From the NCBI RefSeq assembly GCF_003268595.1, contig NZ_CP029797.1, positions 2,625,501 through 2,689,500 of the forward strand: a stretch of DNA of 64,000 nucleotides, written 5' to 3'. Under the pieces are notes generated by a model. It had not been told where the DNA came from. It searched no databases and saw only the letters and a program-made list of their open reading frames with translations. The translations under genes were made by a program, and so were the position numbers. Position 1 is the stretch's first letter, and each line of letters opens with the position of its first letter. The DNA is from Paraliobacillus zengyii (lineage in GTDB: Bacteria > Bacillota > Bacilli > Bacillales > Amphibacillaceae). Shown piece by piece: positions 4,412-46,267 of this stretch.

Positions 4412-4525
4412 ATCGTTCCCTCTATTCTCCTATTTAATTGTATATATATAGTAGACGAGGTGATTTAGAATAGGTTACATTTTTTAAAAAATAAAAGAGG
4501 CTGGGACAAAACTCAGATAAACAAT

Positions 4526-4570
4526 AAAAAGTTGCATCTTCCAACGGTAGTTGGAAGATGCAACTTTTTT
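4526..4570 (+). terminator. Outer hairpin-terminator upstream of the IS transposase
   Basis: GTTGCATCTTCCAAC (4531-4545) pairs perfectly with GTTGGAAGATGCAAC (4550-4564) and is followed by six Ts. It would stop transcripts entering from outside before they reach the transposase. Copies 2 and 3 have the same structure; in copy 2 a C-G pair replaces a T-A pair in the stem. Confidence 0.75.
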
Positions 4571-4598
4571 ATAAAATCGAAAATTTTAGTAAGTAAAA

Positions 4599-4654
4599 AA
4601 GGATACCTTCTGATAAAATTAAAGTACCACACAATAACAATCGGAGGTATCCTT
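4599..4654 (+). promoter_or_regulatory. RBS-sequestering inverted repeat of the IS transposase
   Basis: AAGGATACCTTC (4599-4610) can pair over 12 positions, one a G-U wobble, with GGAGGTATCCTT (4643-4654). The second arm contains the whole Shine-Dalgarno sequence and ends at the start codon (4655). A transcript starting outside the element would carry both arms and hide the ribosome site. One starting between the arms would not. The intervening AT-rich segment could hold the transposase promoter (inferred). All three IS copies keep both arms. Confidence 0.65.
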
Positions 4655-6369
4655 ATGTTTAAAGATTATAACATGAATCAAGTAATTTTGCCGTTAGATT
4701 TTGAAATGAAATTACAAAAAATGATATTGCCTATACGATCCATGACTTAGTAGAACAAATACCTGATAAAGCATTTTCTGTTTTCTTACATGAAACAGGT
4801 TGTCCTGCTTATCATCCACGCATGATGATGAAGGTTATTTTATGTGCTTACACGCAATCTGTTTTCTCTGGAAGAAAAATTGAATCATTACTGAAAGATA
4901 GTGTACGTATGATGTGGTTAGCGCAAGGTTATGAGCCAAGCTATCGAACGATTAATCGTTTTCGAGTCAATGAAGAAGTACAAGAACTGTTACGCCAATG
5001 TTTTGTACAATTTCGATGCCAACTGGTGAAAGAAGAGCTGATTGACCAGGAAGCGATCTTTATTGATGGCACCAAAATAGAAGCAAATGCCAATAAATTT
5101 ACGTTTGTTTGGCGAAAAGCGATTGAAAAATACAGTGCGAATTTGGTGGAGAAATCAAATCAACTGTACGATGAATTATTGGCAAACGAAATTATTCCAG
5201 AAATAGAACGCGAAAGTACGGAAGAACTATCCACTAAAGAACTCGAAAAAGTAGTTGAGAAACTAGAGAAGACCGTTGAAGGATACGACAAACAGATCGA
5301 AGAAAGTAAAGATGTCAGCAAACGGAAGCAGCTTCGCTCTGCAAGGAAAACACCAAAAAAATACCGCAAACAGTTTAAAGATTACGTAGCACGCAAACAA
5401 AAATACGAAAAGGATAGGCTTATATTTGAAGCGCGCAATAGTTATTCAAAGACAGACCATGATGCCACCTTTATGCGCATGAAAGACGATTATATGAAGA
5501 ATGGCCAATTAAAAGCAGGTTACAATGTACAAATTGCGACCGAAGGACAATATACACTCGCATATGACGTATTTCCCAATCCAACTGATGTACGCACATT
5601 CACTCCTTTTCTAGATAAAATCGAGGAAAGCTTCTTTGAACTTCCCACATATATCGTAGCTGATGCAGGGTATGGAAGTGAACAGAATTATGAAGATGTC
5701 CGCATTAATCGGGAGCGCATCCCGCTGATTACATACAATAGGTATCGAAAAGAGAAGACAAAGAAATATAAGCAAGACCCTTTTAACACAATGAACTGGG
5801 CGTATGATGAAGCGAGTGATTCTTTCCGTTGTCCAAATGATAAAAAAGTGGCTTTCCAGTATCTATCTAATCGAACAGGTAAAGATAACTTCACCCGATC
5901 CTTTAAAGTCTATGAATGTGAAGACTGTTCGGATTGTCCGTTGCGTTCCCACTGTACAAAAGCAAAGGAAGGAAATAATCGAAAAATTTATTATAATGAA
6001 AAATGGGAACAACAAAAAGCATACACAAAACAGCAGCTTTCAGAAAAAGAAACCGGTAAAATTTATGGCAAACGAAAAATAGATGTAGAACCAGTCTTCG
6101 GATTTTTGAAGGCTAATTTGCGTTTCACTCGTATGTCAGTAAGAGGCAAGAAGAAAGTGGAAAATGAATTAGGATTTGCATTCATGGCGGTGAACTTGAG
6201 AAAGTACACGGCTAAGCATGCGCATGGTCCAACAAATCCTGAAAATAATCCAACAAAAAAAGATTCCGACCATCTTCCTAAGATGATCGGAATCTTTTTC
6301 GTTATTTTGGCTAGTTATGTCCCAGCCTCTTTACATTTCTTATTATTTAATTTTTACATAGGATTGTAG
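4655..6369 (+). pseudogene. IS1182-family transposase, frameshifted (copy 1)
   Basis: The protein starts [15 protein letters not shown] and should continue as in copies 2 and 3, but the A-run after codon 21 has six As (4716-4721) where the other copies have seven. The frame therefore ends after [12 protein letters not shown] at 4750. The correct frame resumes at once and is open from 4822 ([12 protein letters not shown]) to 6369. That part keeps the DDE-type landmarks: [25 protein letters not shown], the Cys cluster [13 protein letters not shown] and [16 protein letters not shown]. No stop lies inside the element; the frame leaves through the inverted repeat and ends in metK antisense. Slippage at the A-run could in principle rescue it. 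Confidence 0.9.
6258..6299 (+). terminator. Internal terminator of IS copy 1, inside the transposase reading frame
   Basis: GATTCCGACCATCTT pairs with AAGATGATCGGAATC (one mismatch), followed by five Ts. The hairpin encodes transposase residues [12 protein letters not shown], so transcription would end before any in-frame stop codon. Confidence 0.7.
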
Positions 6370-7545
6370 TGCTTCTACTTTATCGGTTTTCTCCCAAGGA
6401 AACTCAATATCTGTTCGACCAAAATGTCCGTATGCTGCAGTGTCTCGATAAATAGGTCTGCGCAAATCAAGCATCTTTATGATACCTGCTGGACGTAAAT
6501 CAAATAATGCTCGAACAGCTTCTACTAATTTTTCCTCGCTAACTTGTCCACTATTAAACGTATTAATAGCAATTGAAACTGGGTCTGCGACACCAATAGC
6601 ATAAGCTAGCTGTACTTCACAAGCATCAGCAAGTTTTGCTGCTACAATGTTCTTTGCAACATAACGCGCTGCATATGCTGCAGAACGATCTACTTTTGTT
6701 GCATCTTTCCCACTAAATGCACCACCGCCATGACGGGCGTAACCACCGTATGTGTCCACGATAATCTTTCTACCTGTTAGCCCTGCATCACCCTGTGGTC
6801 CACCGATAACAAATCGACCAGTTGGATTAATAAAATACTTTGTGTCTTCATCTAATAATTCAACTGGTACGATTGGATTAATAACATGCTCTTTTAAATC
6901 AGCCTGAATTGTTTCCAATTCTATATCTGGATGATGTTGTGTTGAAATAACAATGGTGTCAATTCGTAATGGCTTATCTTGCTCATCATACTCTACTGTA
7001 ACTTGTGTCTTGCCATCTGGACGTAAATAGTCAACAGTTTTATCTTTTCTTACATCTGCAAGACGTTTAGAAAGCTGATGTGCTAGAGCTATTGGTAAGG
7101 GCATCAATTCAGGTGTTTCATTATTGGCATAACCAAACATAAGACCTTGATCCCCTGCTCCAATAGATTCAAGCTCGTCATTCGTCATATTTCCTTCTCT
7201 TGCTTCTAGAGCTTGGTCAACTCCACCAGCAATGTCAGGTGATTGTTCATCAATTGCTGTTAGTACCGCACATGTTTCAGCATCAAAACCATATTTAGCT
7301 CTTGTATAACCAATTTCTTTTATTGTTTTACGTACAATTTGTGGAATGTCAACGTAAGTAGAGGTAGTTATTTCCCCCGCTACTAAGACTAAACCTGTTG
7401 TTACAATTGTTTCACACGCTACACGTGCATTTGGATCATGTGTTAAAATCTCATCAAGAATCGCATCAGAAATTTGATCACTTATTTTATCTGGGTGCCC
7501 TTCTGTTACTGATTCCGAGGTGAATAATCGACGATTTGCAGTCAT
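6343..7545 (-). CDS. metK: S-adenosylmethionine synthetase
   Basis: The 400-residue cytosolic enzyme makes SAM from methionine and ATP. It shows the family motifs GHPDK (16-20), GAGDQG (129-134), HHPD (204-207) and the P-loop-like GGGAFSGKD (273-281). Length is typical. AGGGGAGA precedes the ATG. The 227 bases upstream contain no recognisable S-box riboswitch, unlike B. subtilis metK. An IS ends 13 bp after the stop codon, where the metK terminator should be, so the hairpins of the IS probably terminate its transcript. pckA, next to metK in B. subtilis, is absent here. Confidence 0.97.
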
Positions 7546-7772
7546 TCTGCTAAATCTCCCCTTCCTAAATCACTTGCCCGACCATTTTTATGTCGAATAG
7601 ATATATTTTACGTCTTCCTTTTTTGAACTGCAATAGTTATTTCAATTTTATAATTGCTAGATATCCATTATGAAGCCATTATAAATTTAATTTTGCTTTT
7701 TATTTAATGGAAGGTGCTCGAATGTTATCGTAACGGAACCAATAACAGTTGTCAATAAAACATTCTAAAATA

Positions 7773-8153
7773 CTAGTGAATTCGACAGGTGCCATTTTCA
7801 CATTTATTTTTAAATAAATGATAACGATTCTTAGCGACCCAACGATATAATGGATTTCCAATTAAATCTGCCTTTGGTAAATAGGCTAGTACTCCCAACA
7901 AAAATGTTAGAACACAACGAAGCAAAACAAAACGAACTGCATAAAAGCCTGTTAAAGTTTCACCATTTTTCTTTCTTAAATGAATCTCTCCTACTAATTC
8001 TTGTTTCTCTTCCTCCGATAGCTTGTTTGTTGCTTGATAGGACTGTAAAGATTTCCATTCAAAGACATTGAACCAGTCCAGTGCGGTTATGATCTTTTTA
8101 CTTTGTTGACAGAGGTAACAAAATTGATCATATAAAATAATATTCTTAGCCAC
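7773..8153 (-). CDS. DCC-family thiol-disulfide oxidoreductase-like protein (DUF393)
   Basis: This is a 126-residue protein with an N-terminal C-x-x-C in LYDQFCYLCQQ (Cys12, Cys15), as in the DCC/YuxK family. The family normally reads DGxCxxC; here Asp9 is kept but the next residue is Gln. A hydrophobic stretch (FVLLRCVLTFLLGVLAYLP) and a basic end with RYHLF and CENGTC follow. The enzymatic role of the family is unproven. The gene stands alone, divergent from the ABC importer genes, with AGGAGG-like sequence upstream. Confidence 0.8.
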   Translation of the reverse strand: MAKNIILYDQFCYLCQQSKKIITALDWFNVFEWKSLQSYQATNKLSEEEKQELVGEIHLRKKNGETLTGFYAVRFVLLRCVLTFLLGVLAYLPKADLIGNPLYRWVAKNRYHLFKNKCENGTCRIH

Positions 8154-8291
8154 TTTTAGCCTCCTTATTTTACTTTTCCACTACTATACCATTATTAATC
8201 CTATTTTTTAAAAACTTATACTTATAGGCAGGCACACATTTTCCGCCCATGAATAAAGTAAAGAAAGACAAAATAAAAAGGGGATAAAATA

Positions 8292-9281
8292 ATGAAAAAA
8301 TGGCTTGTTTGTCTTATATTACTTTTATCACTAGCAGTATTTAGTGCCTGTTCAGATAATTCTTCGATTACAAAAATTAAGGTTGCAGAAGTTACACGTA
8401 GTATCTTTTATGCACCGCAATATGTTGCACTTGAAGAAGGGTTTTTCGAAGAAGAAGGACTAGACGTCGAATTACAAACAATTCCTGGTGGAGATAAAGT
8501 AATGACCTCCATTTTATCTGATAACTCAGATATCGGCCTTGTAGGATCAGAAACATCTATCTATGTAGGCGCCCAAGGTTCCGAAGATCCTATTATTAAT
8601 TTTGCACAGTTAACACAAACAGATGGAACTTTTCTTGTAGCTAGAGAACCTAACGATGATTTTACGTTTGAAGATCTAAAGGATACTGATTTTTTAGGGC
8701 AACGAAAAGGCGGCATGCCACAAATGGTTGGAGAATACGTATTGAAACAGAATGAAATTGATCCACAGAATGATTTGAATTTAATTCAAAACATTGACTT
8801 TGCTAATATCGCTAGTTCTTTCCTATCTGGTACGGGTGATTACGTTCAACTATTTGAACCAATTGCTAGTCAATTCGTCCAAGATGGCAATGGTCATATT
8901 GTTGCATCTTTTGGTGAAGAATCTGGTCATGTCCCTTATACCGTATTCATGGCTAAGCAAAGTTTTCTAGAAGAGAATGAAGAAGCTGCAATTAAATTTG
9001 CTCGCGCAATATACAAAGCCCAACAATTTGTGCAAGAACATGAAGCCGAAGAAATTGCTGAAATAGTTCAACCATATTTTGAAGAAACCGACATCGCGTT
9101 ATTAGTTTCTTCCGTAGAACGCTATAAAGCACAAGGTTCTTTTGCTGAAAATCCACTTTTAGATGAAGAAGAATGGAATAACTTAAAATCTATTATGGAT
9201 GAAGCTGGTGAATTACCAGCAGATATTATGCATGATGAATTAGTAAACACGGAAATAGCCGAAGAGGTCATGAACGAATAA
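8292..9281 (+). CDS. ytlA: ABC importer substrate-binding lipoprotein (NMT1/THI5-like, YtlA type)
   Basis: The 329-residue protein has a lipoprotein signal MKKWLVCLILLLSLAVFSAC with the lipid-acceptor at Cys20. The mature part is an NMT1/SsuA-like binding fold (APQYVALEEGFFEEEGLDVE, then GSETSIYVGAQG). It heads a three-gene importer operon: the ATPase follows 13 bp later and the permease overlaps that. Order and position between metK and ytkD match B. subtilis ytlA-ytlC-ytlD, whose ligand is unknown to me. Pyrimidine precursors or sulfonates are typical for the fold. No thiamine or S-box riboswitch is visible upstream, so the ligand is left open. Confidence 0.85.
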   Translation: MKKWLVCLILLLSLAVFSACSDNSSITKIKVAEVTRSIFYAPQYVALEEGFFEEEGLDVELQTIPGGDKVMTSILSDNSDIGLVGSETSIYVGAQGSEDPIINFAQLTQTDGTFLVAREPNDDFTFEDLKDTDFLGQRKGGMPQMVGEYVLKQNEIDPQNDLNLIQNIDFANIASSFLSGTGDYVQLFEPIASQFVQDGNGHIVASFGEESGHVPYTVFMAKQSFLEENEEAAIKFARAIYKAQQFVQEHEAEEIAEIVQPYFEETDIALLVSSVERYKAQGSFAENPLLDEEEWNNLKSIMDEAGELPADIMHDELVNTEIAEEVMNE

Positions 9282-9294
9282 GGAGGTTTTATGC

Positions 9295-10077
9295 TTGAGC
9301 TTTTTGCAAATAAAGCAGATCTCACATTATTACTTTAACCGAGAAAGTTATACAAAAGCACTAAATAATATCTCATTTTCTGTTGAAGAGGGCGCATTTA
9401 TTTCCTTGTTAGGACCGAGTGGTTGTGGTAAAAGTACCCTTTTATCTATTATAGCAGGTATTATTGCCCCAACTCACGGTGCTATTACGCTTCAACAACA
9501 GAACTTAATTAAAAACCGCTCAGAAATCGGTTATATGCTTCAACAAGACTACCTTTTTCCGTGGAAGACCATTCTTGAAAACACATTAATTGGACCAAAA
9601 GTACAGCAAAATCAAGATAAGGCAACCATTGAGAGGGCTAAAGGTCTTTTGAAAGAAATGGGTCTAGAAGATGTTACAGATGCTTATCCAAGTAATCTTT
9701 CTGGTGGAATGCGTCAACGTGTTGCACTCATTCGTACGCTATTAACAAATCCACAACTACTTTTACTTGATGAACCATTTTCTGCACTCGATTTTCAATC
9801 AAAATTAAAACTAGAAGATTTGGTTTCTAACTTATTAAAAAGTTATCATAAAACATCTATCCTGGTCACCCATGATATTGGAGAGGCAATTGCCATGAGT
9901 GATCGAATTTATCTCATGCGTGCAAACCCAGGTGAGATTCACCAACAATTCGAAGTTCCAGTTGAAGTTCGAAATTTAACGCCATTTGAGGCAAGAAAAC
10001 ACATCAAATATCAAAACTTATTTGATCGGATATGGGAGGAGTCGAATAGCCTTGAGTCAAAAGCAACAGTCCGATAA
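9295..10077 (+). CDS. ytlC: ABC importer ATP-binding protein (YtlC type)
   Basis: This 260-residue NrtD/SsuB-type ATPase has Walker [10 protein letters not shown] (40-48), signature LSGGMRQR (135-142), Walker B LLLLDEP (155-161) and an H-loop in LVTHD. It powers uptake with the flanking binding protein and permease. The start is TTG 9295, eight bases after AGGAGG at 9281-9286. The nearer ATG at 9291 is in another frame and stops after 15 codons. The SD overlaps the stop codon of the binding-protein gene, so translation is probably coupled. Confidence 0.9.
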
Positions 10078-10861
10078 CAGTCTGTTTCTAAACCATATTA
10101 AAAAGTTAAAATCCGATCGAAGGAATACGCTATATTGGCAGCTGTTTATTTTTATTGTTTTCATCATAACGTGGGAAACAACTAGCAGATTAGCTTGGAT
10201 AGATCCGTTGATTTTTAGTTCACCTTCCAAAGTTGCAAGTTTATTTTTATCGAATTTAGTTGATGGCTCACTTTGGTTTCATTTACGAATCACACTTCTT
10301 GAAACAATTGCCGGGTTCGTTGTCGGAACAGTACTTGGAATATTTTTAGCGTTTTTGTTGTGGAATTCTAAGAAACTTTCTGACGTTCTTGATCCGTATC
10401 TTGTTGTACTAAATGCTTTACCTAAAGTAGCTTTAGGTCCTATTATAATTGTGGCTCTAGGTCCTGGGTATGTCTCTATTATTATGATGGGTGCGATTAT
10501 CTCTTTTATTATTACAGCACTCGTTGTATACAGTGCTTTTAGGGAGGTTGATCCTAACTATTTAAAAGTTCTTCAAAGTTTTGGTGCAACAAAATGGCAA
10601 TGCTTTAAAGAAGCAGTCTTTCCAGCTTCTTTCCCCGCAATGATTTCAACTTTCAAAGTAAACGTCGGTTTGTCATGGGTGGGTGTCATTGTAGGTGAGT
10701 TTCTTGTTGCCTCAAAAGGACTAGGTTATTTAATCGTTTACGGATTTCAAGTGTTTAACTTTACACTTGTGCTATACAGTCTTGTTGTTATAGCTATTTT
10801 AGCTTCACTTATGTATCAGGGGGTAGAGAGATTAGAGAAGTGGTTAATCAAACAAAATTAA
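10052..10861 (+). CDS. ytlD: ABC importer permease (YtlD type)
   Basis: The 269-residue BPD_transp_1 permease has about six membrane helices. The ATPase-contact loop is in [20 protein letters not shown], close to the EAA motif. An ATG at 9986 would add 22 non-hydrophobic residues and a long overlap. TTG 10052 has GGGAGGAG ten bases upstream and is preferred. It overlaps the ATPase gene by 26 bp. A bidirectional terminator follows. Confidence 0.88.
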
Positions 10862-10868
10862 TTAAGTA

Positions 10869-10908
10869 AAAGCCGTCCTGATTGCTGAAAAGCATCTTGG
10901 ACGGCTTT
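10869..10908. terminator. Bidirectional terminator between ytlD and ytkD
   Basis: AAAGCCGTCC pairs with GGACGGCTTT across a 20-base loop region. Its right arm reaches the ytkD stop codon. Confidence 0.75.
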
Positions 10909-11380: not shown

Positions 11381-11394
11381 ACTTACCGCTACCT

Positions 11395-12021: not shown

Positions 12022-12210
12022 TTTCTAACCCCCCATCTGTTGTTACTATACCTTTCCTTTTTATATGTTATATCAAACATTTTTATTCAATTAATTTATT
12101 TGCTCTTATATACTATATAAACGGCTCGCATGATGGAATAGTTTCATTTATTTTAAAGGTTGTTTTTAAAAGCTTATTGTTTATGACTAAATTAACATAG
12201 ACTACGACGT

Positions 12211-12713
12211 AACGTTCCTTGCGCCGGAATTATCATCAACTGTGACATAACAGAATCTCCTAACCGACCCGCTACTCAAGTGAAATTGACTCCCTTTCCG
12301 CAGGCACGGCTTCAGCTAACTCGGAAGAAAAAACGCTTCCGAGTGGATCTTCAGCCCGCGCTGTTCCTGCAGGAGTCTCGCCAATTTCACTTGATACGCT
12401 AGTTTTGAAACACTGTAATAATAAGAGTATAGATTGCCTTGTTATTAATTGAAACGACAGTTAGAAAAACTAACAATTATAATACATAAGTACGTCGAAA
12501 AGATACGCTAACCAGCGAAGGAAGCAAATGGATGACACTCCTGTGGGAACAGCAAATGTTTTAGGGTGGGATGAGTAATCGCAATCCCACAAGTTGAAGA
12601 TCCACTCGGAGAGCGACCTTTGCTTATCCGAGTTAGCTGAGACTGTGCCCACGGAAAGGGAATCCATTTGCTGACATAGCGTGTAAGGAAGTTTCACTAT
12701 GTCACAGTTTCTA
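12211..12713. repeat. Dispersed palindromic repeat, copy B (composite of two inverted units)
   Basis: About 503 bp, nearly identical to copy D (48519-49022) in the same orientation. Unit alpha (12276-12394) has perfect 13-bp ends TCAAGTGAAATTG / CAATTTCACTTGA and an apical stem ACTCGGAAG / CTTCCGAGT. Unit beta (12533-12672) is an inverted relative with different ends, AGCAAATGGAT / ATCCATTTGCT, and the same core CCACTCGGA / TCCGAGTTAGCTGA. Beta also carries a hairpin with loop GAGTAATCGCA (12573-12583) on a stem GTGGGAT / ATCCCAC. It fills most of the gene-free 12022-12775 interval. A 75-codon frame inside (12470-12697, minus) is judged non-coding. Confidence 0.85.
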
Positions 12714-12775: not shown

Positions 12776-14494
12776 TTAACAAGAGCGTCTTATATTTTTA
12801 GATTTCCCGCAAAACAAAGAGGCTGGGACATAATTAGCCAAAATAACGAAAAAGATTCCGATCATCTTAGGAAGATGGTCGGAATCTTTTTTTGTTGGAT
12901 TATTTTCAGGATTTGTTGCACCATGCGCATGCTTAGCCGTGTACTTTCTCAAGTTCACCGCCATGAATGCAAATCCTAATTCATTTTCCACTTTCTTTTT
13001 GCCTCTTACTGACATACGAGTGAAACGCAAATTAGCCTTCAAAAATCCGAAGACTGGTTCTACATCTATTTTTCGTTTACCATAGATTTTACCGGTTTCT
13101 TTTTCTGAAAGTTGTTGTTTTGTGTATGCTTTTTGTTGTTCCCATTTTTCGTTGTAATATATCTTTCGATTCTTTCCTTCCTTTGCTTTTGTACATTGTG
13201 AGCGTAATGGACAATCCGAACAATCTTCACATTCATAGACTCTAAACGCTCGAGTGAAGTTGTCTTTACCTATCCGGTTGGAAAGATACTGGAACATTAC
13301 TTTTTTGTCATTTGGACAGAGGAAGGAATCAGTCGCTTCATCATACTCCCAGTTCTTTGTGTTAAAAGGATCTTGCTTATATTTCTTTGTCTTCTCTTTT
13401 CGATACATATTGTATGTAATTAGTGGAATGCGCTCCCGATTAATTAGGACATCATCGTAATTTTGTTCACTTCCATAACCTGCATCAGCGACAATATATT
13501 TAGGAAGCTCAAAGAAGCTTTCCTCGATTTTATCTAGAAAAGGAATGAATGTGCGTACATCGGTTGGATTAGGAAATACATCATAAGCGAGTGCATATTG
13601 TCCTTCTGTCGCAATTTGGACATTATAACCAGCTTTCAATTGGCCATTCTTCATATAATCGTCTTTCATTCGCATAAATGTGGCATCATGATCTGTCTTT
13701 GAATAACTGTTACGCTCTTCAAATATGGCCATATCATTTTCGTATTTTTGTTTGCGTGTTGCATAATCCTTAAACCGTTTGCGATATTGTTTTGGTGTTT
13801 TGCGTTCAGAACGAAGTTGCTTACGTTCGCTTACATCTTCACTTTCTTCGATCTTTTTGTCGTATGCTTCAACCGTCTTCTCTAGTTTCTCCAAAACTTT
13901 TTCGAGTTCCTGGGTGGTTAGTTCTTCCATACTTTCACGTTCGATTTCTGGGATAATTTCGTTTGCTAGCAATTCATCATACATTTGATTTGATTTTTCC
14001 ACCAAATTGGCACTGTATTTTTCAATCGCTTTTCGCCAAACAAACGTAAATTTGTTGGCATTTGCTTCAATCTTGGTACCATCAATAAAGATCGCTTCTT
14101 CATCAATCAGTTCTTCTTTCACCAGCTGGCATCGAAATTGCACAAAACATTGGCGTAACAGGTCTTGTACTTCTTGATTGACTCGAAAACGGTTAATTGT
14201 ACGATAGCTTGGCTCATAACCTTGCGCTAACCACATCATACGTATACTATCTTTCAGTAATGCTTCAATTTTTCTTCCAGAGAAAACAGATTGCGTATAA
14301 GCACATAAAATAACCTTCATCATCATTCGTGGATGATAAGCAGGACAACCTGTTTCATGTAAGAAAACAGAAAAAGCTTTATCTGGTATTTGTTCAACTA
14401 AGTCATGGATTGTATAGGCAATATCATTTTTTTGCAATTTCATTTCTAAATCTAACGGCAAAATTACTTGATTCATGTTATAATCTTTAAACAT
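12776..14494 (-). CDS. IS1182-family transposase, intact (copy 2)
   Basis: The 572-residue transposase has an N-terminal DUF772-like region ([20 protein letters not shown]), then [12 protein letters not shown], a Lys/Glu-rich coiled-coil insertion (about 165-225) and [15 protein letters not shown] zinc-ribbon-like Cys cluster [13 protein letters not shown] and a C-terminal DDE region [17 protein letters not shown] complete it. The ATG at 14494 directly follows GGAGGTATCCTT. The A7 run that is broken in copy 1 is intact. It belongs to a different subgroup from copies 1 and 3 (for example KQYRKRFKDYATRKQKYEND). There is no stop inside the IS; the frame exits the left inverted repeat and ends 43 bp outside. 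Confidence 0.92.
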   Translation of the reverse strand: MFKDYNMNQVILPLDLEMKLQKNDIAYTIHDLVEQIPDKAFSVFLHETGCPAYHPRMMMKVILCAYTQSVFSGRKIEALLKDSIRMMWLAQGYEPSYRTINRFRVNQEVQDLLRQCFVQFRCQLVKEELIDEEAIFIDGTKIEANANKFTFVWRKAIEKYSANLVEKSNQMYDELLANEIIPEIERESMEELTTQELEKVLEKLEKTVEAYDKKIEESEDVSERKQLRSERKTPKQYRKRFKDYATRKQKYENDMAIFEERNSYSKTDHDATFMRMKDDYMKNGQLKAGYNVQIATEGQYALAYDVFPNPTDVRTFIPFLDKIEESFFELPKYIVADAGYGSEQNYDDVLINRERIPLITYNMYRKEKTKKYKQDPFNTKNWEYDEATDSFLCPNDKKVMFQYLSNRIGKDNFTRAFRVYECEDCSDCPLRSQCTKAKEGKNRKIYYNEKWEQQKAYTKQQLSEKETGKIYGKRKIDVEPVFGFLKANLRFTRMSVRGKKKVENELGFAFMAVNLRKYTAKHAHGATNPENNPTKKDSDHLPKMIGIFFVILANYVPASLFCGKSKNIRRSC

Positions 14495-14658
14495 AAGGAT
14501 ACCTCCGATAGTTATTGTTTCGTCACTTTAATTTTATCAGAAGGTATCCTTTTTTGCTTACTTAAATTGTTTCAATTTTATAAAAAAGTTGCACCCTCCA
14601 ACCATAAATTTGGAAAGGTGCAACTTTTTATTGTTTATCTGGGTTTTGTCCCAGCCTC
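12819..14658 (-). mobile_element. IS1182-family insertion sequence, copy 2
   Basis: 1840 bp between GAGGCTGGGACA (12819-12830) and TGTCCCAGCCTC (ending 14658). Flanks are ACAAA on the left and AATTATTG on the right, with no target duplication. The right end lies two bases from the stop codon of the ABC ATPase gene. Read in that gene's direction, the distal flank is TTTGTTTTG, like a terminator tail. The outer hairpin (about 14581-14632), the RBS-masking arms (AGGTATCCTT at the start codon) and the terminal hairpin (about 12848-12891) match the other copies. Confidence 0.92.
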
Positions 14659-14660: not shown

Positions 14661-15500
14661 TTATTGTGCTTGCGCAGTTTTCTTTTGGGATTCTGCTACT
14701 ACGTCTTTTATTAAACAACGACCACGTCCATGTGGGATACACATTGGTGTACCAAACATTGGATCATAGGTTACGTCACATTTCATTTGAAATACATCAT
14801 GAACCATATTGCAACTAATGATTTCTTCTGGTTTCCCTTGTACATGGACCTTTTTATCTTTAATTGCAACGATATGGTGAGCATAACGACAAGCAAGATT
14901 CAAATCGTGCAATACCATTACAATGGTACTATTATGCTTTTCATTTAATTCAAACAACAGATCGAGGATTTCAATTTGATGGGTCATATCTAAGTAAGTA
15001 GTAGGCTCATCTAATAAAATAGTATCCGTTTTTTGCGCTAAAATCATTGCAATCCAAGCACGCTGTCGCTGTCCGCCTGATAGCGAATCAACTGCCCGGT
15101 ATTTTAAGTCCATCATATTGGTTGATTCTAATGCTTCATTTACTGCATCATCATCTTCACTCGACCATTTATTAAAAATGCTTTTATATGGATGGCGTCC
15201 TTGTTTAACTAAGTCTTGTACTGTCAAACCTTCTGGACTTATCGGACTTTGCGGGAGAATAGAAAGTTGTCTTGCCACTTCTTTTGTTGGCATTTTCGCA
15301 ATGTTTTCTCCGTTAAGCACGACGCCACCTTCTTTTGGCTTTAAAAGTCTTGCCATTGAACGAAGTAAGGTAGATTTACCGCAACCATTTGCACCGATGA
15401 AAACTGTGATTTCACCTTTAGGTACAGTCATATTTAAATCCTCTATAATAACATCATCACCGTATCCTAGTGTTAAATCTTTCGTAGCGATCGTTTCCAT
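14661..15500 (-). CDS. Siderophore/Fe-type ABC transporter ATPase (FecE/YusV family), orphan
   Basis: The 279-residue ATPase has Walker A GANGCGKST (36-44), signature LSGGQRQR (140-147), Walker B ILLDEPTTYLD (161-171) and H-loop VLHDLN, typical of iron-siderophore uptake. The frame opens at 15518, but the ATG at 15500 (METIATKDL) has GGGAGA at good spacing. No binding protein or permease is nearby. In B. subtilis the orphan YusV serves several siderophore importers, and I infer a similar shared role. A Fur-box-like site lies 137 bp upstream. IS copy 2 starts two bases after the stop. Confidence 0.88.
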   Translation of the reverse strand: METIATKDLTLGYGDDVIIEDLNMTVPKGEITVFIGANGCGKSTLLRSMARLLKPKEGGVVLNGENIAKMPTKEVARQLSILPQSPISPEGLTVQDLVKQGRHPYKSIFNKWSSEDDDAVNEALESTNMMDLKYRAVDSLSGGQRQRAWIAMILAQKTDTILLDEPTTYLDMTHQIEILDLLFELNEKHNSTIVMVLHDLNLACRYAHHIVAIKDKKVHVQGKPEEIISCNMVHDVFQMKCDVTYDPMFGTPMCIPHGRGRCLIKDVVAESQKKTAQAQ

Positions 15501-15636
15501 TTGCAATCTCTCCCTCACGAGCGTTGCTGATTTATATCAGAAAAATAAGTAACTGTATTTCAAACTATATTGTAAGTAGTAATATTTTTATCAGTAACTC
15601 TAGTTTATTGGCTATTAACTAATTCGTCAATGATTT

Positions 15637-26291: not shown

Positions 26292-26339
26292 ACACATATC
26301 AAGAAATAAAGGTATATAAATATACCAAATTTTGCTCCT

Positions 26340-26474
26340 TATCTTCTCCCATCCAGACTTTAACTGTCGGTCCCGGATTTGCACCAGGTCCACCACTATG
26401 AAAGTGGGTCACGGACTAAAAGCGATTTAACGCTTATCACCGTCGGTCGGGAATTACACCCTGCCCCGAAGATA
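26340..26474 (-). promoter_or_regulatory. FMN riboswitch (RFN element)
   Basis: Read on the minus strand, the conserved blocks occur in order: TATCTTCGGGGCAGGGTG, then ATTCCCGACCGACGGTGA, GTGACCC, GGACCTGGTGCAAATCCGGG and ACAGTTAAAGTCTGGATGGG, ending GAGAAGATA. The terminal P1 helix TATCTTC/GAAGATA closes it. This is the standard RFN aptamer and controls ribU. Confidence 0.97.
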
Positions 26475-26576
26475 GAATCGATATTTAATTAATTATATTA
26501 TACAATAAGTTAAAAAGTTTGTGAAGTGTTTTACATGTGTTTTTTTTCACAAAGTTCATATTTCATAAAAATACTT

Positions 26577-36422: not shown

Positions 36423-36440
36423 CTGTGCAGGAGGTGTCGT

Positions 36441-38348: not shown

Positions 38349-38400
38349 ATCTATCGATAGCTCGTTTCTCTTACTTGAAAATTCTAGCCACCGATATTCT

Positions 38401-39087: not shown

Positions 39088-39170
39088 TTTTATTACACCC
39101 TCTCTGGGTGTCAGCTTTACCAAAATGATTTGATTTTATACATTGTTTCAAAGAAAACCAGTTTATTTAC

Positions 39171-40385
39171 TTAATGAAAGAGTTTAAACTTTCCTTTTTT
39201 GAATAAGAGCGACCAACCACCAATTTGATATAAGACTCGATTATCAATAATCTGCTTTAAAATTATTGCTTCCTTACCAAATATTTTTCTGTTATTCAGT
39301 ATACTTCCGATCGCATCTTTTCTTCCTAAAGAAGCAATTGTTCCGCGGTCCTTAAAATAAAATGAATCTAATTTGGAATCACCTTTTAATAATTTCACTA
39401 AATTACTTGCACAAAGTTTAGCTTCTTGTATTGTCATTTGGGCAGTTGGAGGATATATATCACCGTCCTCAGAAAAAATCAGTGCACAATCACCTATCAC
39501 AAAAACATTATCATAGCCTGGTGCTCTTAAGTCTACATTAACTTTAACACTACCCTTTTCATTTGAAATACCCGATTTCTCCATCAGTTTATTCGCACGA
39601 ACACCTGCTGACCACACAAAGGTGGAAGCTGGTATCTCTTCCACTGCCCCTGCTTTTTCCACAACAATATAATCACGTTTAACCATTTTCACCTTTGTTC
39701 CTAACCGAAATTCAACACCACGCTCTTCTAAATAGTGCATCGCATATTCTCCAAGTTCAGGATCAAATCCTGGCATAACAGTCTGTTCAGCTTCAATTGC
39801 AATGATTTTTACGTTTTCCTGATCTACATCATATGTTTTACATAAAGTAGGTAGTTGATCTGTTAACTCTCCTAAATACTCTACACCTGTAAATCCACCT
39901 CCACCAACAATAATTGTTAATGGATACGTATTTGTTCCAGTGTGTGTGTATGTAGCAAACTGACTTTCTACCTGTTCTCTTAATACTCTAGCTTGATTAG
40001 CAGTTCCCATTGAAAAACTATACTCTTTTAATCCAGGTATTTGGAACGTTTCCATCTCAAATCCTAATGCCACAACAAGATAATCATAGTTCAATTCTGT
40101 CTGCAGTAAATTAATTTTCTTTTGATCTACATCAATATGCATTACAGTATCTTGAATAAATTCAATCTTACGTGGATCAATCAACTGATCAATGGCTATT
40201 TTTGTTCGCTCGTCAGCTAAGGTACCAGCTGCGTTTTCATGTAACCATGTTGTCTGATAATGATAGGCATGTTTATTAATTAATTGAATAACCGCATCAT
40301 CTTTTTTTAACTGCTTTTGTAGTGTTACTGCGGTCATAATTCCTGCGTAACCTGCACCTAATATAACTATTCTCGACTTTCCCAA
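39171..40385 (-). CDS. yumB: NAD(P)/FAD oxidoreductase, type II NADH dehydrogenase-like (YumB)
   Basis: The 404-residue flavoprotein has the FAD-binding VILGAGYAGIMTAV at the N-terminus, the NADH-binding IIVGGGGFTGVEYLGEL and the C-terminal FAD segment NVFVIGDCALI. A membrane-associating end (GGWSLLFKKGKFKLF) is as in Ndh. It would pass electrons from NADH to menaquinone, which fits the men genes in this window. It is divergent from yumC, as in B. subtilis. Confidence 0.9.
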   Translation of the reverse strand: MGKSRIVILGAGYAGIMTAVTLQKQLKKDDAVIQLINKHAYHYQTTWLHENAAGTLADERTKIAIDQLIDPRKIEFIQDTVMHIDVDQKKINLLQTELNYDYLVVALGFEMETFQIPGLKEYSFSMGTANQARVLREQVESQFATYTHTGTNTYPLTIIVGGGGFTGVEYLGELTDQLPTLCKTYDVDQENVKIIAIEAEQTVMPGFDPELGEYAMHYLEERGVEFRLGTKVKMVKRDYIVVEKAGAVEEIPASTFVWSAGVRANKLMEKSGISNEKGSVKVNVDLRAPGYDNVFVIGDCALIFSEDGDIYPPTAQMTIQEAKLCASNLVKLLKGDSKLDSFYFKDRGTIASLGRKDAIGSILNNRKIFGKEAIILKQIIDNRVLYQIGGWSLLFKKGKFKLFH

Positions 40386-40576
40386 TGTGTCACTTCCATC
40401 CTATACATTCCTTGTCACATTTTCGTAATATTTAATCTAAACTCATCTTAGATGGTTTTAGTCGATTTTTCAACCCACCTAATCACTTTATTTAAGAACT
40501 GAGATTTCTATTTTAACAATAAAGTATGTTAAAATATTTATGTCTACATATGTTTTCAATATAGGAGGAATCAGGA

Positions 40577-41566
40577 ATGACTGATCAACACGTTTATGAT
40601 ATTACTATTATTGGTGCGGGACCTACCGGGCTATTTACTGCCTTCTACGGTGGACTTCGACAAGCCAGTGTTAAAATAATTGAGAGCTTACCACATATTG
40701 GCGGGCAACTTAGTGCACTATATCCAGAGAAATATATTTATGATGTGGCTGGTTTTCCTAAAATTGGAGCGCAAGAACTTGTAAATAATTTAAAGGAACA
40801 ACTTGATATGTTTGATCCTTCTATTGTCTTAGATCAAGAGGTACAAGAAGTTGAACGACAAGAGGACGGATCGTTTAAATTAACAACACAGACAGAAATA
40901 CATTATACAAAAACCATTATCATTACAGCAGGAAACGGTGCATTTCAGCCACGCAAATTAGCTTTAAAAGAAGCAGAGGCATATGAAAGTCGTAATCTAC
41001 ACTATTTTGTTGATAACATGATGAAATTCAAAGGAAAACGTGTGGTATTATTTGGTGGTGGAGATTCTGCAGTTGATTGGGCATTGATGTTGGAATCAAT
41101 CGCAGCTGAAGTAACACTTATTCATCGTCGTGATAAGTTTCGCGCACATGAGCATAGTGTTGAAAAATTAATGAATTCAAATGTTCGTATTTTAACTCCT
41201 TATGTACCTGAAGCACTTATTGGAACAGATTTGATCGAACAAGTTAGAGTAAGCGAGGTAAAAGGCGATAATGAAGTTATCATTGATGTCGATGATGTAA
41301 TAGTTAATTACGGGTTTATTTCGTCACTGGGTCCAATCAAGAGTTGGGGAATGGATATTGATAAAAATAGTATTGTTGTTAACCCAAAAATGGAATCAAC
41401 TGTTGAAGGTATTTATGCAGCTGGTGACATTTGTACATATCCAGGAAAAATCAACTTAATAGCAACAGGATTTGGTGAAGGTCCAACCGCCATTAATAAC
41501 GCGAAAGCTTATATAGAACCAGACGCTCGTGTCCAGCCAAAACATTCAACTAGTTTATTTGAATAA
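40577..41566 (+). CDS. yumC: Ferredoxin--NADP+ reductase, thioredoxin-reductase-like (YumC)
   Basis: The 329-residue flavoprotein has FAD motif [21 protein letters not shown] motif [15 protein letters not shown] and [14 protein letters not shown]. It lacks the redox CxxC of thioredoxin reductase, which marks the YumC-type ferredoxin/flavodoxin reductase. AGGAGGAATCAGG precedes the ATG. Confidence 0.94.
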
Positions 41567-41570
41567 ATAA

Positions 41571-41595
41571 TGCCACCCATGTGGGTGGTATTTTT
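41571..41595 (+). terminator. Terminator after yumC
   Basis: TGCCACCCA pairs with TGGGTGGTA, followed by five Ts. Confidence 0.8.
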
Positions 41596-41707
41596 AGTTT
41601 GACAATGCTCTAGTTCAATAATAATGCGTGATACAAGGAAATAAATGAATAGTATGCTTCTTCTTGGATAATTTATAAAAAAGAGTTGTATCTAAGGAGG
41701 GCATACA

Positions 41708-42274
41708 GTGCAAGCACAAATTGATAATTTTAATAAAATAAAAACATTGCAAGAAGAAGTAGCAAAACTCCAGCATGAATATTGGATTACCTATAGTAGT
41801 ATTGACACATGGCAATTTTGGTTAATGGTTATGATGCTTATTCTACCATTAATAGTACTACTTATCGCAATTGATAAAACTAAGCTATTCCTTATTTTAT
41901 TCTTTACATTTAATATCCATGTTTGGTTTGCCTATATCGATTCCTTCGGTGTAAGAAGAGCTTTTTGGGAATATCCATATTCTCTAACACCATATTTTCC
42001 GTTTAGTCTGTCACTAGATGGCTCATTAGTTCCTGTCGCATTTATGCTAGTTTATCAGTGGTCGCTTAATAAAATGAAGAACTTTTATCTCTATTCGACT
42101 GGTTTGGCTGCGCTCTTTTCATTTGTCTTTAAACCCTTTTTGGTAAGCATAAACCTTTTTCATCTAAATAATGGTTTTAATTACTTTTATCTATTCCTCC
42201 TCTATTGTTTACTTTTCTTAGTTTCGATAGCTATTACAAACTTCTTTATAAAACTAAAAAAACTGCCTAATTAA
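41708..42274 (+). CDS. CBO0543-like integral membrane protein, function unknown
   Basis: The 188-residue protein has a short N-terminal coiled-coil (FNKIKTLQEEVAKLQHEYW) and then five or six hydrophobic helices. Features such as FWEYPYSLTPYFPFSLSLDGSLVPVAFML recall the CBO0543 family of Firmicute membrane proteins; no function is known to me. The start is GTG 41708 with AAGGAGGGC upstream. Its stop lies inside a bidirectional terminator. Confidence 0.7.
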   Translation: MQAQIDNFNKIKTLQEEVAKLQHEYWITYSSIDTWQFWLMVMMLILPLIVLLIAIDKTKLFLILFFTFNIHVWFAYIDSFGVRRAFWEYPYSLTPYFPFSLSLDGSLVPVAFMLVYQWSLNKMKNFYLYSTGLAALFSFVFKPFLVSINLFHLNNGFNYFYLFLLYCLLFLVSIAITNFFIKLKKLPN

Positions 42275-42316
42275 TAGTGTTAGTAACAATCACTATCGAT
42301 TAGGCAGTACTTTTTG
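42262..42316. terminator. Bidirectional terminator between the membrane protein gene and yutM
   Basis: ACTGCCTAATTAATAGTG pairs with CACTATCGATTAGGCAGT (two mismatches), then ACTTTTTG. Confidence 0.8.
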
Positions 42317-42333
42317 TATTGGACTCGTTCATA

Positions 42334-42693
42334 TTAACAGTCTCCTGGTGTACCTTCTCGGTCTTTGGCTTTAAATGAAGAGCCACAACCACAGGATACA
42401 ATGGCGTTCGGATTATCGATCGTAAATCCGCCACCCATCATGTTTTGCTTGAAGTCAATTGTTGTACCTTCAATTACAGCTATGTCCTGTTTAAAAATAG
42501 TTAATGGTATACCGTTAACTTCTTCTGTTGTATCTAAATCTTTATTAATATCATAATCAAAACCTAGAGAATAAGAAAGACCACTACATCCCCCACCTTT
42601 AACTCCAAAACGAAGGCGAACCGTTTCCTGGTCCTCTTCTTTTAACATCTCTTCTATTTGTAAACGAGCATTATCTGTAATGTTTAAGACCAT
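42334..42693 (-). CDS. yutM: HesB/IscA-family iron-sulfur carrier (YutM)
   Basis: The 119-residue A-type carrier has the three conserved Cys in GGGCSGLSY and SCGCGSSF, which bind Fe or an Fe-S cluster for delivery. ATG 42693 has GAAGGAAGG upstream; 12 extra codons to 42729 are unlikely. It lies close to the NifU-type yutI in the same yut locus, so both probably serve Fe-S maturation. Confidence 0.92.
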   Translation of the reverse strand: MVLNITDNARLQIEEMLKEEDQETVRLRFGVKGGGCSGLSYSLGFDYDINKDLDTTEEVNGIPLTIFKQDIAVIEGTTIDFKQNMMGGGFTIDNPNAIVSCGCGSSFKAKDREGTPGDC

Positions 42694-42771
42694 TTTATTA
42701 CCTTCCTTCTCCATAATCATTATCTTCAAGTATACTAATAAATAGTGATTGATTCAAATATAGTGAATGAT

Positions 42772-43629
42772 TCACCTATTCCAAATAAATACACCTTCAA
42801 TAGTAGTCTCTGCTTTTCCTTTCATCCATACATGGTTATCCAATCCCCAACGAATAAATAAATCACCACCACTTAAGTGGACTGTCACGACTTCGTCTTT
42901 AGTAGCATGACCATTAAGAATTGCAGCAACTGCTGCAGCACATGCACCTGTACCACAAGCTTGTGTAATTCCCGATCCACGTTCCCACACACGAAAGTGC
43001 ATTTCTGTTTGATTTATAATTTCCACAAATTCTACATTAACACCTTCAGGAAAGCGATGATCATGTGTAATAATCGGTCCAAGATCACTTAATGGTGCTT
43101 CCTCAATATCATCTACAAAAAAGACTGCATGTGGATTCCCCATTGATATAGCAGTTAATTGTAAAGGATGATGACTAACTTGAAAATCTTCTAATACAAC
43201 TTGTGCATCGTCCTCACCTATCATTGGGATTCTTTTACGGTTTAAAATAGGCTCACCCATATCAACCGTTACTTCTTCAACTAAATCTTTGGTTCCATGA
43301 ACTTCAGCAGTTACATTGCCTGCTTTTGTTTCTATCTCAAATGTTTTTTGCTTAACTAATTGATTTTCAAAGGCATATTTTGCAACACAGCGAATGCCAT
43401 TTCCACACGTTTTTCCCTCTGAACCATCTTTATTAAAAATACGCATACCAACCGGTGCTTGTTTACTAGGATGAATTAAAATCAAACCATCTGAACCAAT
43501 TCCAATATCCTTATTTGCAACAGTAATTGCCAATTGTGGTAGACTCTTTTCATCAAGTTGTGTATCAAATGTATTAATAAATATATAGCTATTGCCTAAT
43601 CCATGCATTTTCGTAAATGGTATTCTCAT
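42772..43629 (-). CDS. dapF: Diaminopimelate epimerase
   Basis: The 285-residue enzyme converts LL- to meso-diaminopimelate for cell wall and lysine. The two catalytic Cys are in GKTCGNGIRC (Cys75) and QACGTGACAAA. It starts MRIPFTKMHGLGNSYI at ATG 43629, with GGAGG upstream; the frame is open to 43662. Standard length. Confidence 0.95.
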   Translation of the reverse strand: MRIPFTKMHGLGNSYIFINTFDTQLDEKSLPQLAITVANKDIGIGSDGLILIHPSKQAPVGMRIFNKDGSEGKTCGNGIRCVAKYAFENQLVKQKTFEIETKAGNVTAEVHGTKDLVEEVTVDMGEPILNRKRIPMIGEDDAQVVLEDFQVSHHPLQLTAISMGNPHAVFFVDDIEEAPLSDLGPIITHDHRFPEGVNVEFVEIINQTEMHFRVWERGSGITQACGTGACAAAVAAILNGHATKDEVVTVHLSGGDLFIRWGLDNHVWMKGKAETTIEGVFIWNR

Positions 43630-43702
43630 CGTTACCTCCACTGTTGGCTCATCATGCACCAAAGTATTTATATCTTATTATACAAACATATTCAGTGTTA
43701 TG

Positions 43703-44023
43703 CTATGCATGTGCATTAATTCGTTGCTCGATTTGCTGATAAACCACTTTAATCCGTGGATCACCTTCACATACAAACTGATCATCGATAACAATAATAG
43801 GGTAAAATAAATTATCCTTTTGTATCTGATCAATCCAGTTTTGCTCTTTGCTATTATTTGTCTGCTTAAATATATCTACATATACATATTCAAAATCATC
43901 AAAGTTAGGAAATTTTCTAGGTACTGCTGCTTTTATCCAATCAAATGTCTCTTTAGAACTTGGGGCATTTATGCAACTCGAACATATTTTTTCTGCACCA
44001 TATACTGCTATTGTAATTGACAT
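43703..44023 (-). CDS. yuzD: YuzD-like protein (DUF1462), thioredoxin-like
   Basis: The 106-residue protein has GAEKICSSCINAPSSKETFDW with a C-x-x-C (in CSSC), followed by PRKFPNFDDFEYVYVDIF. This is the YuzD/DUF1462 family. The CxxC and fold suggest a redox role, unproven. It lies back to back with yutI (nfuA type), as in B. subtilis. Confidence 0.88.
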   Translation of the reverse strand: MSITIAVYGAEKICSSCINAPSSKETFDWIKAAVPRKFPNFDDFEYVYVDIFKQTNNSKEQNWIDQIQKDNLFYPIIVIDDQFVCEGDPRIKVVYQQIEQRINAHA

Positions 44024-44189
44024 TTCTCTCGCACCTCACTGTAACAAATTTCAATTAAAATTATTAATTCTATTTTACAAAACATTATTAAAAAGGTAAA
44101 ATAGATATAACTAAAAAAGTAAATCTCCAGAATAGATTTTTGATAAAAACATGTTATACTGTTAATGAAAGTAAGAAAGGGGAAGATGG

Positions 44190-44414
44190 ATGATGCAAGA
44201 GCAAGTACAAGAAGTATTAAACAAATTACGTCCATTTTTACTACGTGATGGTGGCGATGTTGAATTAGTAGATGTTGATGAAGGTATTGTACGTCTTCGT
44301 TTAATGGGAGCATGCGGGAATTGCCCAAGTTCAACAATCACATTGAAGGCTGGTATAGAGCGCGCATTAATGGCTGAAGTTCCAGGCGTAGCAGAAATTG
44401 AACAAGTATTTTAA
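44190..44414 (+). CDS. yutI: NifU C-terminal-domain iron-sulfur scaffold (YutI)
   Basis: The 74-residue protein has the Nfu cluster-binding CxxC in [15 protein letters not shown] and [19 protein letters not shown]. It carries Fe-S clusters to target proteins. The start is ATG 44190 or the next codon, both after AAAGGGGAA. IS copy 3 begins 20 bp after the stop, and the IS transposase frame continues into this gene on the other strand. Confidence 0.93.
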
Positions 44415-46109
44415 AACTATAGATGATAAAAAAGAGGCTGGGACATAACTAGCCAAAATAACGAAAAAGATTCCGATCATCTTAGGAAGATGGTCGGAAT
44501 CTTTTTTTGTTGGATTATTTTCAGGATTTGTTGCACCATGCGCATGCTTAGCCGTGTACTTTCTCAAGTTCACCGCCATGAATGCAAATCCTAATTCATT
44601 TTCCACTTTCTTCTTGCCTCTTACTGACATACGAGTGAAACGCAAATTAGCCTTCAAAAATCCGAAGACTGGTTCTACATCTATTTTTCGTTTGCCATAG
44701 ATTTTACCGGTTTCTTTTTCTGAAAGCTGCTGTTTTGTGTATGCTTTTTGTTGTTCCCATTTTTCATTATAATAAATTTTTCGATTATTTCCTTCCTTTG
44801 CTTTTGTACAGTGGGAACGCAACGGACAATCCGAACAGTCTTCACATTCATAGACTTTAAAGGATCGGGTGAAGTTATCTTTACCTGTTCGATTAGATAG
44901 ATACTGGAAAGCCACTTTTTTATCATTTGGACAACGGAAAGAATCACTCGCTTCATCATACGCCCAGTTCATTGTGTTAAAAGGGTCTTGCTTATATTTC
45001 TTTGTCTTCTCTTTTCGATACATATTGTATGTAATCAGCGGGATGCGCTCCCGATTAATGCGGACATCTTCATAATTCTGTTCACTTCCATACCCTGCAT
45101 CAGCTACGATATATGTGGGAAGTTCAAAGAAGCTTTCCTCGATTTTATCTAGAAAAGGAGTGAATGTGCGTACATCAGTTGGATTGGGAAATACGTCATA
45201 TGCGAGTGTATATTGTCCTTCGGTCGCAATTTGTACATTGTAACCTGCTTTTAATTGGCCATTCTTCATATAATCGTCTTTCATGCGCATAAAGGTGGCA
45301 TCATGGTCTGTCTTTGAATAACTATTGCGCGCTTCAAATATAAGCCTATCCTTTTCGTATTTTTGTTTGCGTACTACGTAATCTTTAAACTGTTTGCGGT
45401 ATTTTTTTGGTGTTTTCCTTGCAGAGCGAAGCTGCTTCCGTTTGCTGACATCTTTACTTTCTTCGATCTGTTTGTCGTATCCTTCAACGGTCTTCTCTAG
45501 TTTCTCAACTACTTTTTCGAGTTCTTTAGTGGATAGTTCTTCCGTACTTTCGCGTTCTATTTCTGGAATAATTTCGTTTGCCAATAATTCATCGTACAGT
45601 TGATTTGATTTCTCCACCAAATTCGCACTGTATTTTTCAATCGCTTTTCGCCAAACAAACGTAAATTTATTGGCATTTGCTTCTATTTTGGTGCCATCAA
45701 TAAAGATCGCTTCCTGGTCAATCAGCTCTTCTTTCACCAGTTGGCATCGAAATTGTACAAAACATTGGCGTAACAGTTCTTGTACTTCTTCATTGACTCG
45801 AAAACGATTAATCGTTCGATAGCTTGGCTCATAACCTTGCGCTAACCACATCATGCGTACACTATCTTTCAGTAATGATTCAATTTTTCTTCCAGAGAAA
45901 ACAGATTGCGTGTAAGCACATAAAATAACCTTCATCATCATGCGTGGATGATAAGCAGGACAACCTGTTTCATGTAAGAAAACAGAAAATGCTTTATCAG
46001 GTATTTGTTCTACTAAGTCATGGATCGTATAGGCAATATCATTTTTTTGTAATTTCATTTCAAAATCTAACGGCAAAATTACTTGATTCATGTTATAATC
46101 TTTAAACAT
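44367..46109 (-). CDS. IS1182-family transposase, intact (copy 3)
   Basis: The 580-residue protein is the same as copy 1 without its frameshift (A7 run intact) and with only scattered residue differences ([14 protein letters not shown] against [14 protein letters not shown]). It shows the same [25 protein letters not shown] and [13 protein letters not shown] landmarks. The ATG 46109 follows GGAGGTATCCTT. The open frame upstream to 46292 lies across the outer hairpin and is not used. As in the other copies, no stop exists inside the IS; the frame runs 68 bases into flanking DNA, antisense to yutI. Confidence 0.93.
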
Positions 46110-46267
46110 AAGGATACCTCCGATTGTTATTGTGTGGTACTTTAATTTTATCAGAAGGTATCCTTTTTTACTTACTAAAATTTTCGATTTTATAAAAAAG
46201 TTGCATCTTCCAACTACCGTTGGAAGATGCAACTTTTTATTGTTTATCTGAGTTTTGTCCCAGCCTC
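44435..46267 (-). mobile_element. IS1182-family insertion sequence, copy 3
   Basis: 1833 bp bounded by GAGGCTGGGACA and TGTCCCAGCCTC. It lies between two convergent genes: 20 bp after the yutI stop and 5 bp before the chemoreceptor stop (46273). Immediate flanks are AAAAAA on the left and TTTTTTT on the right, exactly what a bidirectional terminator would show around its stem. There is no target duplication. Internal hairpins match copy 1. Confidence 0.93.

Follow-up and report, generated by a model that had tools for sequence, protein, structure and literature searches.

An IS1182-family insertion sequence of Paraliobacillus zengyii that probably replaces terminator hairpins and carries terminator-like hairpins at its own ends

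Introduction

Why do three copies of one insertion sequence (IS) lie just behind stop codons, at positions where transcription terminators belong, in a single stretch of the Paraliobacillus zengyii genome? The stretch, called the window below, is the whole 64,000-nt sequence analyzed (contig NZ_CP029797.1, positions 2,625,501 to 2,689,500), taken from a genome of 3,728,451 bp. A first-pass annotation had seen in it three IS1182-family copies that occupy the places of terminators without target duplication, and had pointed to a report that staphylococcal IS1272 transposes by replacing inverted repeats. The observation on these three copies is confirmed here and set among all 22 copies of the genome, of which it had covered three. 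As argued below, the element is probably a terminator-replacing IS that recognizes structure, brings terminators of its own, and has a further hairpin over the ribosome site of its transposase gene.

That report exists. Replacement of hairpins in staphylococci has been described for TnSha1 and IS1272, and, in the accessible parts of these papers, to which our statements on them are limited, the target hairpin is lost wholly or partly and no duplication is made (Furi 2016, PMC4923244; Wan 2017, PMC5678879). Five of seven target hairpins were confirmed as terminators by RNA-seq, and TnSha1 was without primary sequence specificity (Furi 2016, PMC4923244). The targets of some copies are not inverted repeats (Wan 2017, PMC5678879).

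The element and its copies

Members of the IS1182 family have terminal inverted repeats, a length of about 1.8-2 kb and a single transposase. In the window, a pattern search found six 12-mers in three pairs, the perfect 12-bp ends of three complete copies. An exact search of the genome for this 12-mer gave 42 occurrences: 20 pairs, which bound full copies of 1753-1842 bp in agreement with the family definition, and two single ends, each from a complete copy whose other end is mutated (at genome positions 2230940 and 2689581). A DDE_Tnp_1 search of the genome gave 30 matches, which were sorted by place into 22 within these copies, seven within an IS4-family element and one elsewhere. The transposase scores 428.7 bits against the NCBIfam IS1182 model NF033551 (cut-off 270), contains the domains DDE_Tnp_1_6, DDE_Tnp_1 and DUF772, and is 53-55% identical to relatives on staphylococcal plasmids; three copies (2164763, 2354017 and 2528450) have an in-frame TGA in its gene. 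Most analyses were made on the 20 own copies with two perfect ends, and the two mutated-end copies were added in the 22-copy flank analysis alone. Relatives' copies were taken from the best 80 of 484 matches; nine loci lacked a recognizable end, which left 71, and those with enough flank numbered 69 for the flank analysis and 66 for placement relative to open reading frames (ORFs).

Empty sites in a related genome

The sole same-genus comparison genome is about 80% identical to that of P. zengyii. Ten of the 22 orthologous sites were examined there and hairpins were judged by eye: those at metK, an ABC transporter ATPase gene and yutI, and those at 816992, 3177774, 2379094, 2386273, 1565672, 2579754 and 809343. 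In nine of the ten, a stop codon is soon followed by a hairpin and its T-rich tail, an inverted repeat that is missing after the insertion, and one is ambiguous. At 3177774, the comparison genome reads CTAAAAAAGTACGCTCTCGACTTGAGAGCGTACTTTTTC where P. zengyii reads A5-IS-T5; in the alignment a net 34 bases, the hairpin stretch, are absent from P. zengyii, and the BLAST matches end within about 1 base of the IS edges and are separated by 30 bases. The metK site has homology on the metK side only. Of the family relatives, 10 others were compared at metK and 6 others at yutI, and most of these have terminators there too, with different stems; three other relatives were compared at the ABC gene, and two further relatives at 816992 (L166 and L167) are less clear. 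The replacement of terminator hairpins proposed in the first-pass annotation is thus supported at nine of the ten sites.

The check suggested along with that proposal implied that the empty sites would hold hairpins made of the IS end sequence itself, GAGGCTGGGACA; the two IS ends would form such a stem. This was not borne out. By eye, the stems differ among the examined sites and none resembles the IS end; all exact 12-mers in the P. zengyii genome are IS ends (hairpins with mismatches were not searched genome-wide), and the comparison genome has one exact 12-mer, without a partner in the 120-base stretch inspected. With the lack of primary sequence specificity reported for TnSha1 (Furi 2016, PMC4923244) pointing the same way, a GAGGCTGGGACA hairpin as target is refuted for the sites examined and was rejected as having practically no probability. 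Since none of the empty-site stems is related to the IS ends, the element seems to target structure and not GAGGCTGGGACA.

As a separate observation, about 4.7 kb between two IS copies (genome positions 2380931-2386273) is unmatched at the corresponding place in the comparison genome, with one partial match of 69% elsewhere.

Position relative to genes and flanking sequence

An IS end lies 0-15 bp past a stop codon in 17 of the 20 own copies, the other three being at 39 bp, at 204 bp and in a 15-bp overlap with an ORF. Every one of the 20 faces the 3′ end of an ORF on one side or both, and no copy is flanked by divergent ORFs. Among the relatives, 62 of 66 copies face an ORF 3′ end, and 37 of 66 are 0-19 bp from the stop. 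The ORF calls used for placement were mechanical, and the yutI side of the third window copy was misread by them as a 5′ end. One of the mutated-end copies adjoins the 3′ end of an apparent tRNA gene, recognized by eye without a tRNA finder.

Positions within 15 bp of a stop make up about 1.6% of the window (62 ORFs x 16 bases / 64000), and chance placement was rejected on the 17 of 20 copies found there. Near-random insertion might still give this picture if selection removed the copies that break genes or promoters, given that insertions past stop codons do least harm and that IS1182, among other families, is reported to be over-represented between convergent genes (accessible part of PMC9208149). 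We consider this very unlikely, because, besides the proportion just given, it leaves the hairpin loss and the absent duplication unexplained, and because the IS4-family element of the same genome has direct repeats of about 10 bp and a different kind of site. Terminator positions as the target of the IS1182-family element are, on the sequence comparisons made here, well supported.

The flanks of the copies follow the pattern A-tract, IS, T-tract. At least four A in the last six left bases together with at least four T in the first six right bases are found in 18 of 22 copies, compared with 0.8% of random window positions, and A at -2 and -3 with T at +2 and +3 in 95% of the 20 own copies. The complementary run read outward from the junction has a mean of 4.55 in the 22 copies versus 2.48 when the right flanks are re-dealt (0/5000); it reaches 12 and contains G/C in several copies. 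In the 69 relatives' copies the corresponding values are 2.57 and 1.35 (0/2000). One of the flank repeats with G/C reads ATACTAAAAAA before and TTTTTTAGTAT after the IS. Exact direct repeats of more than 2 bp at the IS edges occur in none of the 22 own copies, and one of 3-4 bp occurs in one of the 69 relatives' copies; target duplication was therefore rejected, both at the three window copies, as the first-pass annotation had stated, and as a consistent feature of the others.

The base preference next to the junction would also be expected if the element targeted A-/T-tract sequence past stops through a preference for sequence or bendability and the hairpins were lost separately, and A/T-tracts alone account for much of the flank complementarity. 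Such targeting is nevertheless improbable, since the true flank pairs beat re-dealt pairs that are equally A/T-rich, G/C positions included, since what is missing at site 3177774 is the hairpin stretch, and since target duplications are absent.

The IS4-family element served as a control. Its seven copies (L178-L184, at 290794, 2979600, 3289720, 884752, 1018394, 1542500 and 3311324) all lie, by eye, within a high-copy intergenic repeat at the same GCCGTGCCC core. Their 10-bp direct repeats are perfect in five, match at 9 of 10 positions in one and are poor in L181; target duplications are thus visible in this genome when present. The one copy that was folded, L182, is without A/T-footed end hairpins. 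Judged by eye, this element appears to be a second target-specific IS in the genome. The intergenic repeat itself, with the core TAGCTGARGCCGTGCCCNCGGAAAGC, is seen in the window at about 12266-12690 and 48556-48999; allowing up to three mismatches, TAGCTGARGCCGTGCCCNCGGAAAGC is present at 124 places in the genome (58 forward and 66 reverse, with 0 for a reversed control), and the repeat has many matches in the comparison genome and some in other family members.

Terminator-like hairpins at the element ends

Each window copy has, just inside both ends, a strong hairpin with A-tract and T-tract feet (z -5.4 to -9.4 for the six stretches). To put these in a wider set, 91 elements (20 own and 71 from relatives) were reduced to 61 distinct end pairs (10 own variants and 51 relatives), in which a fold-based script detected the hairpin at 50 left and 56 right ends; its background was 28 hits among 794 interior windows and 12 among 610 mononucleotide-shuffled end segments. 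Because the elements are related, these counts are not independent events. A gap-free script, with a background of six matches in element interiors and six in one shuffle of each element, missed bulged stems, and fold-based detection was adopted for this reason. The hairpins that were found are about 20-40 nt away from the element ends and have the features of intrinsic terminators, namely a G+C-containing stem, a short loop and A-/T-tract feet. Clustered at 75% identity, their arms form 21 groups on the left and 10 on the right, the sequence drifting while the pairing is kept.

Both hairpins were also recognized by eye in plasmid copies that are 38-72% identical, from Terribacillus, Staphylococcus (two), Ligilactobacillus, Enterococcus and Lactiplantibacillus (with weak T-tracts in the last). 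Two Pseudomonadota IS1182 copies (L175 and L176) show no obvious end terminators by eye, and the feature is accordingly claimed for Bacillota only. Longer left regions occur in L073, L075, L091, L093, L146, L170 and L171, and by eye the extra stretch in several of them resembles the high-copy repeat and lies between the left hairpin and the transposase gene. At locus L123, 45 bp of the IS left end are duplicated in tandem (about 2293-2380), and by eye the inner junction is inside the 5′ arm of that copy's left hairpin.

The end hairpins might be DNA structures for transposition, acting in synapsis or as mimics of the target hairpin, and not terminators. The same enzyme seems to recognize hairpins as targets, and the hairpins keep the distance from the ends given above, both of which would suit such a function. 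We think this rather unlikely, because the A-/T-tract feet and the strand symmetry are those of two-way terminators and the stem sequence is free between lineages, although the hairpins may have a double role as terminators and transposition structures. As terminators, they would be expected to have an insulating role.

The ribosome-site hairpin and the transposase frame

Upstream of the transposase gene, two arms pair, for example AAGGATACCT with AGGTATCCTT, and the second arm contains the ribosome site. Of 45 distinct left regions, 41 have the extended -10-like motif TGNTANNAT between these arms (TGATAAAGT takes its place in three, and one was not aligned). In 32 distinct arm pairs, pairing is 0.84 versus 0.785 after re-dealing (0/2000), and double changes are found in 8 columns versus a re-dealt mean of 5.1 (19/2000).

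In 11 of the 20 own copies the transposase frame meets no stop within the IS and runs on into host DNA, where it ends, and hence the right terminator-like hairpin falls inside the coding frame. The updated IS1272 transposase is also described as having no stop codon of its own (PMC4923244, PMC5678879). The relatives are mixed: in many, the frame closes 15 or about 93-116 bases short of the IS end, and a stopless transposase was dropped as a defining feature.

The three copies in the window

Copy 1 (4497..6329, plus strand, 1833 bp) lies at the terminator position of metK, and its transposase gene is frameshifted early. Its left-end hairpin, with A-tract and T-tract feet, is at 4526..4569 (-30.5 kcal/mol, z -8.0 for the folded stretch), the hairpin over the ribosome-binding site at 4599..4654 on the plus strand with the extended -10-like TGATAAAAT between its arms (z -3.95), and the right-end hairpin at 6257..6299 (z -5.4 for the 81-nt stretch containing it). 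The metK gene (equivalog match; 6343..7545, minus strand) has its stop codon 13 bp away from the IS and no hairpin of its own beyond the stop, where the comparison genome has one.

Copy 2 (12819..14658, minus strand, 1840 bp) lies at the terminator position of the ABC transporter ATPase gene (14661..15518, minus strand), whose stop is 2 bp from the IS and for which the comparison genome has a hairpin and T-tract at this place; the best model for the ATPase is FecE, with a score below the FecE cut-off. The right-end hairpin is at 12848..12892 (z -7.8) and the left-end hairpin at 14583..14629 (z -5.6), the stem of the latter being unlike those of copies 1 and 3 yet paired. The 572-aa transposase (12776..14494, minus strand) runs out of the IS into the flank.

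Copy 3 (44434..46267, minus strand, 1834 bp) is between convergent genes, a yutI-like NifU-domain gene (3′ part, 44196..44414, plus strand, stop 44412-44414) and a chemoreceptor gene with an MCP signalling domain (46273..48312, minus strand, stop 5 bp from the IS), and has the A6 and T7 flanks that the first-pass annotation described. Its right-end hairpin (44463..44507, z -7.8) is identical in sequence to that of copy 2, and its left-end hairpin is at 46195..46238 (z -9.4). The hairpin over the ribosome-binding site (46110..46166, minus strand) was read from the sequence and has the same arms as in the left regions compared above. The IS1182-family transposase has 580 aa (44367..46109, minus strand), the last 22 codons being outside the IS. 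The stop distances annotated earlier for metK, the ATPase and the chemoreceptor gene stand, and that for the yutI-like gene is 19 bp instead of 20.

Rfam at the gathering cut-off gave no match in the IS copies of the window, and none in the window apart from an FMN riboswitch (26337-26477, minus strand, 113.7 bits).

Discussion

The following mechanism is proposed. The IS1182-family element would transpose into the DNA of an intrinsic terminator, where a hairpin or cruciform structure, and not the stem sequence, would be recognized by the transposase. The cut would fall near the A/T foot of the hairpin; stem and loop would be lost, and the outer A-tract and T-tract would remain as IS flanks without target duplication. 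The terminator-like hairpin just internal to each terminal repeat reads alike on both strands, and with such two-way hairpins a gene deprived of its terminator would gain another about 35-50 nt past its stop codon, by our own arithmetic. The third hairpin would hide the transposase ribosome site in transcripts entering from outside, and the site would stay exposed in RNA initiated at the element's own -10, which is located between the arms. The position of the copies, the hairpin loss at the examined sites, the absent duplication and the conserved pairing of the hairpins can be read from the sequences; structure recognition by the transposase, the location of the cut, termination at the end hairpins and occlusion of the ribosome site are inferred.

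Several observations weigh against this reading. In the comparison genome, site 2379094 is a palindrome without a T-tract and site 1565672 has an interrupted T tail, and, since that genome is only about 80% identical, the edges can be placed almost exactly only at sites with both flanks aligned, 3177774 being the best case. The complementary flank run is zero in three of the 22 own copies, and four of the relatives' 66 copies face no ORF 3′ end. With the stricter gap-free script, 33 of the 61 elements had the left hairpin and 56 the right one, and 11 left and 5 right ends escaped the fold script; by eye, 10 of these 11 left ends do show a hairpin (L118 via an identical left region), and L101 does not. 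A consensus scan of copy 3 marked the left hairpin on one strand and did not mark the right one, nor did it find a promoter at the -10-like motif. For the ribosome-site hairpin, the number of further pair types is no higher than after re-dealing (1543/2000). Termination at the end hairpins and translational control are to be taken as predictions.

Some features of the element have counterparts in other systems. Class C bacterial group II introns insert at terminator-like motifs; they are retroelements that insert beside the hairpin and do not replace it. IS10 and IS50 are protected from impinging transcription by a hairpin that masks the ribosome site in transcripts entering from outside, as predicted here, although these belong to other families and their targets are not terminators. 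The staphylococcal copies L170 and L171 have, by eye, terminator-like hairpins at both ends. L171, named in its record as ISSep1-type, is likewise of the IS1182 family with two end hairpins by fold, and differs in a longer left region with a stretch that by eye is like the high-copy repeat. IS1272 and TnSha1 share with the present element the transposase family, hairpin targets without sequence consensus, loss of the hairpin and lack of duplication, whereas their reports describe the target, and no mention of terminators inside the element was found in the accessible parts (PMC4923244, PMC5678879). The replacement reading of the first-pass annotation was therefore right and mostly already known; the end-terminator architecture is the part for which nothing on IS1182 or IS1272 elements was found among the papers listed in searches of the open-licence PMC literature, as far as their accessible text goes.

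More tentatively, and at somewhat less than even chances, the IS1182 elements of Bacillota may be terminator-exchange elements, which destroy a host terminator, supply two of their own that are maintained by selection, and also attack themselves. With the host terminator replaced by two, an insertion would be almost neutral for the host. The own end hairpins look like targets, and the elements would consequently attack themselves; if so, the 45-bp left-end duplication of L123 and the 25-bp left-side duplication reported for IS1272L (accessible part of PMC5678879) would be footprints of self-attack. The length of 25 bp would place the edge, by eye, no more than about 3 nt from the left-hairpin foot of the related copy L170.

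The present analysis extends hairpin replacement from staphylococci to 40 further genomes (counted from record titles among the best 80 of 484 matches), and one genome alone holds 22 copies. Carrying the part that is destroyed seems a simple reason why such an element can multiply at terminators without breaking gene expression, and a mobile terminator could alter how read-through and operon ends evolve.

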